Assembly: GCA_013152435.1 (NCBI GenBank) | Contig: JAADGJ010000018.1 | Span: 1 to 56,115 of the forward strand | Length of the DNA: 56,115 bases | DNA from: Chloroflexota bacterium | Lineage (GTDB): Bacteria; Chloroflexota; Anaerolineae; DUEN01 | Direction of reading: 5' to 3' | Shown here: positions 11,984 through 34,263 of the stretch, one piece after another | Numbering within the stretch: position 1 is the stretch's first letter | How the letters are laid out: the number at the start of each line of letters is the position of its first letter | Program-made: the position numbers and the translations under genes | Notes under the pieces: model-generated | What the model saw: the letters and a program-made list of their open reading frames with translations, nothing else | Databases searched by the model: none | What the model was told of the DNA's origin: nothing

Positions 11984-12070
11984 CAGGGCTTTTCAAAGCT
12001 CAAACACCTCCCCCTGAAATCCTACCGTAGAGATGCCCCTTGCGGGCGCCTGAGGCAGCCACAAGGGGGT
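11984..12070 (+). repeat. R0 element fragment
   Basis: About 87 bases beginning CAGGGCTTTTCAAAG match, on the opposite strand, the block at 24245-24329, including a shared core around CCTGAAATCCTACCGTAG and GGGCGCCTGAGG. In this copy it leads straight into a partial R1 repeat. Confidence 0.7.
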
Positions 12071-12190
12071 CCTTCCCTCCACGGAAATCCCACCTTTCCG
12101 GCCTGTACCTGCCTCTCCCGGCCCTTTCCGCGGAACCCAGACCGAGGCCGGGCAGGTCGAAGGGGCTTCCCCTCCGAGCCGCCTCATGCC
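12071..12190 (+). repeat. R1 intergenic repeat, partial copy A
   Basis: This copy retains the TTCCCTCCACGGAAA block, the central inverted repeat ACCTGCC...GGCAGGT and the start of the right hairpin (CTTCCCCTCCGAG). Both outer ends are missing or diverged. Orientation is the same as the full copy at 33105. Confidence 0.7.
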
Positions 12191-23544: not shown

Positions 23545-23754
23545 TTACGCGCTCTCGTCCTTCTGGCTCTCCGCGTCCTCTTTGGCCATCTCCTCGAGCT
23601 CCTTCTTCGCCTCCTCCCCTTCCTGGGTGGCCTTGCGGAACTCGCGGATGCCCTTGCCCAACGCGCCTCCGACCTCCGGTAGACGGCCGACGCCGAAGAT
23701 GATGATGATGATCACCAGGATGATGATCAACTCCATGGGGCCGAGATTAGGCAT
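23545..23754 (-). CDS. tatA: Sec-independent (twin-arginine) translocase subunit TatA
   Basis: A 69-residue protein with an N-terminal membrane helix ([22 protein letters not shown]), the conserved Phe-Gly hinge, the amphipathic helix [14 protein letters not shown] and an acidic, charged tail. TatA forms the protein-conducting part of the Tat pathway, which exports folded proteins such as Rieske proteins. tatC is not in the window. AGGAGGTG lies before ATG 23754. Confidence 0.93.
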
Positions 23755-23824: not shown

Positions 23825-23841
23825 GTGAACGCCGAAAGGGA

Positions 23842-24329
23842 TCAGGGCTTTTCAAAAATCTAACGGAGACTCCCCCCGGGCACCTCAAACCAGCCTCGCC
23901 TCACTTGGGAAAGGGCGTTGTAGAGACGCAACGGCGTTGCGCCCCTACCAAATACGCCTCTAAGAGTGTGTCTGAGGGTCTCCTTCAACGACCATCTCTA
24001 CAGGGGGAGGCGTGGAGGGGAGATCCCCTCCATGGAAACCTCTTTTTCCTGCCTGCACCTGCCTTTCTCGGCCCCTTCCGAAGGGCCCAGGCCGAGGCCA
24101 GGCAGGTTGAAGGCAGAAGAAGGGCTTTTTCCGGAGGGGCGGAGGAGGGGCGGAGCCCCTCCGGGCCTCCCCACGGCAGAAGCAACGGCATTTCTCAGGC
24201 ACGCTCTAAGGGATCGAGCGTTACTTTAGATCTTGTAGAGGCAGCCCTTGTGGCTACCTCAGGCGCCCACAAGGGGCGCCCCTACGGTAGGATTTCAGGG
24301 GCAGGTGTTTGAGCTTTGAAAAGCCCTGG
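23842..24329. repeat. R0 composite element with an R1 copy inside
   Basis: The left end CAGGGCTTTTCAAA and the right end TTTGAAAAGCCCTG are perfect 14-base inverted repeats 488 bases apart. Inside are small hairpin-like blocks (for example GCAACGGCGTTGC near 23928 and a GGGCGCC-containing block near 24265) and a complete R1 element at 23961-24210. The right 85 bases recur, inverted, at 11984-12070. A third CAGGGCTTTTTCAAAG sits just beyond at 24338. The layout looks like a mobile non-autonomous element into which R1 inserted, or two adjacent elements. Confidence 0.65.
23961..24210 (+). repeat. R1 intergenic repeat, full copy B
   Basis: Full-length copy of 250 bases. Left end TAAGAGTGTGTCTGAG and right end CTCAGGCACGCTCTAAG form imperfect terminal inverted repeats. 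Internal blocks in order: hairpin GTGGAGGGGAGATCCCCTCC, the central ACCTGCC...GGCAGGT arm, then GGAGGGGCGG...GAGCCCCTCCG, and GCAGAAGCAACGGCA near the right end. Confidence 0.85.
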
Positions 24330-24494
24330 AGAGGGGTCAGGGCTTTTTCAAAGTCAGTGAAAGAAGTTTCTTTTGGGAAGCTGCACCCCTCAAAGCTCCT
24401 CGCCGTATTACCCGAAAAGATACATTGCGCCAAGAGGGTCGTGGGTCCTCTAAGGCGGCTTCGACATGGAAGCCCCTCACCTGCCCCGCGGGGC
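24330..24494. other. Gap after the kinase gene with an R2 scrap
   Basis: It contains a third R0-like end at 24338 and, at about 24471-24491, the piece CCCCTCACCTGCCCCGCGGG, which matches part of the R2 repeat at 41165. No gene is seen. Confidence 0.4.
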
Positions 24495-28711: not shown

Positions 28712-28772
28712 GCATCCCCCTTCGCAAGGCGATGAAACAGGCGCAGATGATAATGCGGTAGCTACTGTGTTC

Positions 28773-29035
28773 TTAGAAATGCCGTTGCTTCTGCCGTGGG
28801 GAGGCCCGGAGGGGCTCCGCCCCTCCTCCGCCCCTCCGGAAAAAGCCATTCTTCCGCCTTCGACCTGCCCGGCCCCGGCCCAGATTCCTGCGGAAAGGGC
28901 CGAGAAAGGCAGGTGCAGGCCGGAAAAGTGGGATTTCCGTGGAGGGGAGGTCCCCTCCACACCTCCCCCTGTGGAGCTGGTAGCTGAGGGAGACCCTCAG
29001 ACACCTTACCGGTAAATGTTCAGGCACGCTCCCAG
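28773..29035 (-). repeat. R1 intergenic repeat, nearly full copy C
   Basis: 263 bases in minus orientation. All R1 blocks are present: the AGCGTGCCTGAAC end, GGTGTCTGAGGGTCTCCC, a perfect hairpin GTGGAGGGGACCTCCCCTCC, the ACCTGCC...GGCAGGT centre and the GGAGGGG hairpin. The right end lacks about 12 bases (CAGGCACGCTCT) compared with copy B. Confidence 0.85.
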
Positions 29036-33104: not shown

Positions 33105-33366
33105 TTAGAGCGTGCCTGAAAATTCCCGGCAAGGTGTCTGAGGGTTTCCCTCAACGACAAGCTCCACAGGGGGAGGTGTGGAGGGGACCTTCCCTCCACG
33201 GAAAACCCGGCTTTTCCGGCCTGCACCTGCCTCTCTCGGCCCCTTCCGAAGGACTCGGGCCGGGGCCAGGCAGGTCGAAGGCGGGAGAAAGGCTTTTTCC
33301 GGAGGGGCTCCGCCCCTCCGGGCCTCCCCACAGCAGAAGCAACGGCATCTCTCAGACACCCTCTTA
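33105..33366 (+). repeat. R1 intergenic repeat, full copy D
   Basis: 262 bases from TTAGAGCGTGCCTGAAAATT to CAGACACCCTCTTA. Blocks: GGTGTCTGAGGG, hairpin GTGGAGGGGACCTTCCCTCC, the ACCTGCC...GGCAGGT centre enclosing GGCCCC...GGGGCC, hairpin GGAGGGGCTCCGCCCCTCC, and GCAGAAGCAACGGCA. The last three bases, TTA, are the stop codon of the GNAT gene on the other strand. Confidence 0.9.
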
Positions 33367-34263
33367 GAGCTCCTTCTCCATCCACCAGAACACACGGTGT
33401 ATGCGGGCATCGGCCACGCGAGCGTAGAAGGCGATGGGCCCCACCCAGCAGATATCGGCGGTCCGATGGCCCAGCGCCCTCATATCCCGCATACAGTGCC
33501 AGAAGAGCACCCGGCCGATCCCCCGGCCGCGCAGGTCCGGCTCCGTGCCCATGGGCCCGAAGCCGTTCTCGAACATGGTCACGTTGTAAGAGGCGAACGC
33601 GCAGATACGATCCTCGCGCGTGGCCACGAAGGTGGAAATGGGATCATTCTCATAAGAGGAGAGGGCCTCATAATGCCATACGGGGCTCCACCGCTCTTGC
33701 AGCCACGCGCTGAAGGTCTCCCGATCCTCCGGCCGCAATCGTCGAATGGTATATCCCTCCCGGGCCAGGCGCGCCTCCTCCTCACGTGTATCCCAATCGT
33801 GCGCGAGGAGGTCCACCTCCATATCCACCGCCTCGCCGAAGCGGTAGAAACCGTGGCGCTCGAAGAAACAATAGGCCGAGGTGTAGCGCACATCCAGGCC
33901 GGGCCAGAAGTAATTGGGCGCGCTATTGCCCAGCCGCAGCCGGGTGAGCCCATCGGCGCGCAGGCGCCCCTCCAGCTCCCCCAACAACTGAGAGGCGACG
34001 CCCCGCCGGCGATAGGCGGGCTCGACCGTGATCAGGCGCACCCAGGCCATCCTCCCCTCGTCCATCTGACGGACGCCGCCCAGGATCGCCCCCACCAACC
34101 GATCATCCGCCCAGGCAAGCAACTGATAAGCCGGGTCCCGACCGGGCTCCTCCAGAACGCGACGGCGCAACAGGGTCGGCGTGAACACATCCAGGGGAAG
34201 CGTACGTTGACACAAGTCCAGCAAGGCGGGTAAGTCAGCCTCGGCCAATTCACGGATTTCCAT
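33364..34263 (-). CDS. Tandem GNAT-family acetyltransferase
   Basis: The 299-residue product has two GNAT-like halves. The first has the acetyl-CoA loop VEPAYRRRGVASQLL at about 80-95; the second has EPDLRGRGIGRVLFWHC at about 238-254. The order resembles mycothiol-synthase-like double GNATs. The substrate is unknown. Its stop codon TAA lies in the terminal bases of the R1 copy D. ATG 34263 has no strong ribosome binding site. It stands apart from the sugar genes in function. Confidence 0.83.
   Translation of the reverse strand: MEIRELAEADLPALLDLCQRTLPLDVFTPTLLRRRVLEEPGRDPAYQLLAWADDRLVGAILGGVRQMDEGRMAWVRLITVEPAYRRRGVASQLLGELEGRLRADGLTRLRLGNSAPNYFWPGLDVRYTSAYCFFERHGFYRFGEAVDMEVDLLAHDWDTREEEARLAREGYTIRRLRPEDRETFSAWLQERWSPVWHYEALSSYENDPISTFVATREDRICAFASYNVTMFENGFGPMGTEPDLRGRGIGRVLFWHCMRDMRALGHRTADICWVGPIAFYARVADARIHRVFWWMEKEL

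Follow-up and report, generated by a model that had tools for sequence, protein, structure and literature searches.

The R0 element and its ends

The stretch of DNA analysed here (the window) is the whole of contig C18, 56,115 nucleotides, from a Chloroflexota genome (G000) assembled into 149 contigs with a total of 4,973,004 bases (4.97 Mb). It contains, at positions 23843-24328, an element of 486 bp, termed R0, which has 14-bp perfect inverted ends and encloses a copy of a second repeat, R1. The features of the locus, and the related copies elsewhere in the window, are the following.

11984..12163, plus strand: R0 end with R1 fragment; the R0 end, 11984-12067, is inverted relative to 24245-24328
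23834..23842, no strand: left 9-bp target copy of R0 (GAAAGGGAT), 7/9 identical to 24329-24337
23843..23856, plus strand: left terminal inverted repeat of R0, CAGGGCTTTTCAAA
23843..23963, plus strand: left part of R0, ending with the first TAA target copy; aligns to the empty R0 of C13
23964..24206, plus strand: R1, IS5-type MITE, GAGTGTGTCTGA...CAGGCACGCTC, 243 bp (internal deletion of 23 bp close to the left end)
24207..24209, no strand: second TAA target copy of R1; the empty site is CTC/TAA/GGG in C13
24207..24328, plus strand: right part of R0, including the right terminal inverted repeat (24315-24328, minus strand); 90% to the empty R0
24329..24337, no strand: right 9-bp target copy of R0 (GAGAGGGGT)
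24338..24360, plus strand: stub of R5, a second ISAs1-type MITE family, CAGGGCTTTTTCAAAGTCAG; abuts the target copy of R0
28772..29004, minus strand: R1 copy
33106..33368, plus strand: R1 copy, the 263-bp reference for the analysis

The left end of R0 is separated by 88 nt from the start of a 69-residue open reading frame on the minus strand (23545-23754), the product of which by eye resembles TatA, a subunit of the twin-arginine translocase. Scans of the window for Rfam families and tRNA found nothing.

Searching the genome for the 14-mer CAGGGCTTTTCAAA with at most one mismatch revealed 19 sites, as against 0 for the reversed control, and the ends are therefore not a product of chance. At up to three mismatches, the window alone has six matches where 1.9 are expected, a number reached in 1 of 100 shuffles. 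The first-pass annotation had placed these ends around a 488-base region; the perfect 14-base repeats stand as described, but the coordinates were one base off and the span is 486 bp. Its observation that the right block recurs in inverted form beside a piece of R1 holds for 11984-12067 (84 nt, 93%), which is followed by R1 positions 78-176; no second R0 end was found for this copy at 11984-12163.

An empty R0 of 244 bp, with both ends present, lies at C13:12664-12907. As a query against its own genome it gave 25 matching pieces, grouped into 15 places (C13, C18 twice, C39, C3, C34, C108, C106, C24, C122, C75, C53, C119, C137 and C69). The earlier proposal had been staked on the existence of a second R0 with both ends; both are present in six of the 15 places (C13, C18, C39, C75, C119 and C122). 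Within R0 there is an inner hairpin (GGCAGCC...GGCTGCC), the loop of which, once locus orientation is allowed for, is inverted in C13 (L050) relative to seven other readable copies (L001, L041, L040, L038, L057, L061 and L064).

The flanks were compared for 16 complete R0-type elements, that is, those with both ends readable (six from the own genome and ten from relatives or public genomes, one-ended pieces being excluded), with the right flank free to shift by -1 to +2 nt. In 13 of these, the flanks match at seven or more of nine positions, compared with 2 of 240 mismatched pairs given the same freedom. Exact 9-bp duplications are found at C13 (GTACCGAAC, with a one-base shift) and C75 (TCAAAGCTC), in genome G002 (TTACCAAGT) and in isolate J130 (GTTGAAAGG and GATTTTGTG); for the R0 copy in the window, the agreement is just 7/9. 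The three complete elements without a 9-bp duplication (L080, L086 and L104, best 4, 3 and 2 of 9) are exactly those that carry ISAs1 remnants.

An origin as a fortuitous palindrome or as a terminator that flanks an unrelated repeat would be in keeping with the location of R0 between open reading frames and with the ability of its ends to pair, but the excess of genomic sites over the control and the flanks of all six two-ended elements in the own genome, which match at seven or more of nine positions, make such an origin exceedingly improbable, and the empty site and the duplications refute it. R0 is short, lacks a transposase gene, has terminal inverted repeats and target duplications and is present in multiple copies: it is a MITE, a mobile element that is non-autonomous; its ends are of the ISAs1 type and its target duplications are 9 bp long.

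R1 and the probable order of insertion

R1 is about 263 bp in length, gene-less and rich in hairpins, and has terminal inverted repeats with the ends GAGYGTGTCTGA. Because only 40 of the 403 candidates from a DNA search of the own genome for R1 were scored, copies were counted by a 31-nt core pattern, which at up to three mismatches has 179 matches genome-wide and 0 for the control. Among 57 near-full copies, 25 fitted a strict end pattern (the other 32 were dropped), and 20 of these 25, the copies whose ends could be read, are flanked by TNA left and right. The middle base of the triplet is identical on the two sides in 15 of the 20, where shuffling gave a mean of 6.1 and a maximum of 15 in 10,000. 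A consensus fold of 38 of 47 full copies, examined for signs of selection on R1 at the RNA level, has 64 pairs, nine of them with compensatory change, and the covariation term contributes only -1.33 of -67.02 kcal/mol. Short, without genes, bounded by inverted ends, present in many copies and flanked by TNA duplications, R1 is also a MITE, commoner than R0, separate from it and unrelated to it. The two repeat families posited in the first-pass annotation differ in their ends, the lengths of their duplications and their putative parents.

The copy of R1 inside R0 had been called entire, and it is nearly so: 23 bp of the R1 consensus, close to the left end, are missing from it, apparently through deletion between two GTGTCTGA repeats. 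It has TAA on each side and, following removal of R1 and one TAA, the remaining 240 bp of R0 can be aligned over their full length to the C13 element, across CTC/TAA/GGG. The suggestion that R1 had inserted into R0, and the accompanying advice to look for R0 without R1 elsewhere in the genome, were well founded, since the empty copy at C13:12664-12907 fixes both the insertion point and the 3-bp TAA target duplication. An independent pair of empty and filled sites is provided by C75, which has a short R0 that is empty, and C119, in which the same short R0 carries R1 at GATTCG/TTA/GAACGC; here the right copy of the target TTA now reads ATA. In C69, R1 occupies a different TAA of R0.

As judged from sequence comparison, the structure of two nested MITE families with empty sites for both is well supported. 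We infer the order of events at this locus to be R0 and then R1, such that R0 would have landed first, between GAAAGGGAT and GAGAGGGGT, and R1 would have entered it later at CTC/TAA/GGG. The locus would then present a clean ordered pair of events, with an empty site available for each.

Putative parent transposases

Relatives were searched in a set of 60 genomes that includes the window's own, and ISAs1-family (NF033564) matches were found in 14 of them. Thirty ISAs1 loci (L093-L122) were examined. At L096, L097, L103, L104 and L113/L110, an R0-like end is found at a distance of 99-118 nt from the NF033564 match, on its C-terminal side; these are five distinct ISAs1 elements, as L113 and L110 are one element. 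L097 is a whole ISAs1 element of 1244 bp (CAGGGTCTTTTCAAA...TTTGAAAAGACCCTG); its end has one inserted base, and it lies at a contig start so that its duplication is unreadable. No R0-like end at two or fewer mismatches is present at 25 of the 30 loci, or 24 if L097 is counted as having one, and most of the loci without such ends come from one genome, G040. ISAs1 transposase remnants are, moreover, enclosed between two R0 ends in L080 (422 bp, NCBIfam E 4.5e-5) and L086 (871 bp, E 5e-6). These two are among 13 stretches of a public genome collection in which the R0-end pattern was recovered, 13/13 of them Chloroflexota MAGs by title.

R0 thus shares with ISAs1 insertion sequences the ends CAGGG(C/T)TTTTCAAA, which stand beside NF033564 transposases in relatives. 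Target duplications of the ISAs1 family are 8-10 bp in length, and the 9-bp duplications of R0 fit this. R0 differs in being gene-less (244 bp when empty) and in residing in an assembly that has no ISAs1 transposase (NF033564, 0 matches). The latter is weak evidence, because a multi-copy insertion sequence can drop out of a short-read bin. Other observations that count against an ISAs1 parent are the ISAs1 loci without R0-like ends, the missing 9-bp duplication in L080, L086 and L104 and the imperfect (7/9) duplication of the window copy.

R0 might instead be moved by ISL3 or IS1634, families whose ends are similar. One R0-like end, at L088, directly adjoins an IS1634 transposase gene; however, this IS1634 element has inverted ends of its own (TCATGGTTCG...CGAACCATGA, 1417 bp), which start just inside the R0-like end, so that it looks like an insert itself, and it was rejected as the mover of R0. 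ISL3 had been the initial candidate on the strength of the end sequence and of a duplication of roughly 8 bp, but the search of the own assembly found no ISL3 gene (PF01610, 0 matches), and it was the ends of ISAs1 that matched. We consider a mover from either of these two families improbable and favour an ISAs1-family transposase, which would recognise the CAGGGCTTTTCAAA ends of R0 and duplicate 9 bp of target.

At an E threshold of 0.001, one full copy of R1 (84%) was found in G001, a congeneric sister species; G003 and G013 have short pieces only, and the other 56 of the 60 genomes (own included) have no R1. Two sister genomes have a DUF4096/IS5 open reading frame (L201 in G001 and L204 in G002) that is preceded by TTA or TAA and then GAGTGTGTCTGAATATTTGA, at 53-54 nt before its start codon. 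NF033580 is matched by L201 with E 2.9e-36 and by the L204 fragment with E 3.8e-5, and L201 also matches PF13340. At a third locus, L173, an IS5-like C-terminal tail has TAA and then GAGCGTGTCTGAAAATTC on its 3' side; the 30 residues of this tail match no profile, and its IS5 likeness was judged by eye. R1 thus has its ends and its 3-bp TNA target in common with the IS5-type loci L201, L204 and L173, and it keeps the same end asymmetry, with GAGCG at one end and GAGTG at the other. No single IS5 element was seen in which both ends enclose an intact gene; the two ends are known from different contigs. A TNA target is known for some IS5 groups. R1 is alike in its ends and TNA duplications to the borders of IS5-type genes of the DUF4096 group in G001 and G002, and differs from such insertion sequences in its small size, its want of a gene and its many hairpins.

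The only DUF4096 gene in the window's own assembly (C67) has other ends, and the two DDE_Tnp_1 genes of this genome (C67 and C12) were rejected as a source because their ends, compared by eye, are different. The C12 transposase gene (L073), presumably IS701-like, has its own CTCGACTTTGTACG-type ends and directly adjoins an R1 copy.

An IS5-family (DUF4096) transposase would recognise the GAGYGTGTCTGA ends of R1 and duplicate TNA. Neither parent transposase element was seen in the same genome as R0 and R1, and in the own genome the parents may now be lost, unassembled or unbinned. We infer that R0 and R1 would be mobilised in trans by ISAs1- and IS5-family transposases, respectively, and they may be active at present. 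Overall, the reading that R0 is an ISAs1-type MITE and R1 an IS5-type MITE, and that R0 landed first and R1 then inserted into it, is probably correct, and on the sequence evidence we assign it a probability of about 0.87.

Nested copies and related elements

A foreign insert is contained in or abuts R0 at 13 of the 15 places, C13 and C75 being empty. IS5-type inserts are found in C18, C39 (a different element, R3), C69, C119 and C137, and R1 fragments accompany R0 at C122 and at 11984. A further repeat, R2, is inserted in C3, C34, C106 and C108 in one orientation and in C24 and C53 in the opposite one. Three end-only places were also examined (C130, C58 and C76), and in C130 R1 lies directly at the R0-like end. 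R2 has TTGGTATCA-like motifs and sits in the inner R0 palindrome at six loci in two orientations (for example, L054 956-1500, C3). R3 (L041 1623-1780, C39) has its right end in common with R1 and contains CTTGGTGTCTTCGTGGCTTCGTGG-type sequence, and a 227-bp element of G001 (L171), the right part of which is similar to R3, has both R1-type ends with TAA on each side.

R0 and its insert could also move as one composite unit, in which case nests, and not single MITEs, would spread. Three loci (C18, C39 and C137) have an IS5-type insert at R0 site 118-124, and in C18 and C137 this is R1, oriented alike in both; at site 135-160, four loci that differ in their outer flanks (C3, C34, C106 and C108) all carry R2 facing one way; and C122 is a 198-bp element with R0 ends that is largely R1 and has a 7/9 target match. 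However, the insert in C39 is R3 at the very site that is occupied by R1 in C18 and C137, R2 faces the other way in C24 and C53 and R1 is at other R0 sites in C69 and C119, and all of these patterns fit repeated independent hits on preferred sites. In addition, one R0 end is missing in C137 and C3, and C119 is the only filled R0 copy with an exact 9-bp duplication. Shared insert sites with different flanks could thus reflect either moved composites or favoured target sites. We regard the spread of composites as a possibility somewhat below even odds, and it is with similar reserve that we suggest that R0 may serve as a landing platform whose ISAs1-type ends carry IS5-type and R2 passengers to new places as a unit.

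Taken as an ISAs1-type MITE that received an IS5-type MITE, the locus can be set beside elements described in other bacteria. MITEPye1 of Paracoccus yeei is, in the excerpted text of PMC11578231, ascribed to IS1182; like R0 and R1 it is small and gene-less, with the inverted ends of a full-length insertion sequence, direct repeats and long stem-loops, but it is present at 1-3 per chromosome, as against 179 core matches for R1. The TIMEs, as presented in the part of PMC4133298 consulted, are mosaic non-autonomous elements, the transposition of which was captured with trap plasmids. They resemble R0 and R1 as non-autonomous elements that build mosaics, and differ in that they are Tn3-derived, whereas R0 and R1 are of ISAs1 and IS5 type. 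No ISAs1-type MITE is described in the excerpts of PMC9208149, PMC10969869, PMC3606827, PMC4133298 and PMC11578231, and that of PMC10969869 contains neither ISAs1 nor the word "nested".

These are nested bacterial MITEs in Chloroflexota, and each has the appearance of an ordinary, shortened relative of a known bacterial insertion sequence. The analysis names likely parent transposases for two MITE families of a Chloroflexota lineage that has been little studied; the general picture of bacterial mobile elements is unchanged.

The R5 family, the stub of which abuts the right target copy of R0, has elements of about 310 bp (CAGGGCTTTTTCAAAGTCAG...GACTTTGAAAAGGCCCTA) with duplications such as ATCTCGTCC. 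Its end occurs at 51 sites genome-wide at up to three mismatches, compared with 0 for the control, and 20 nt of it also border an ISAs1 element in G002. Many R5 matches are no more than 250 nt away from the end of a contig, by which the element is cut off, so that R5 probably breaks the assembly. High-copy MITEs may help to explain why the genome was assembled in 149 pieces.
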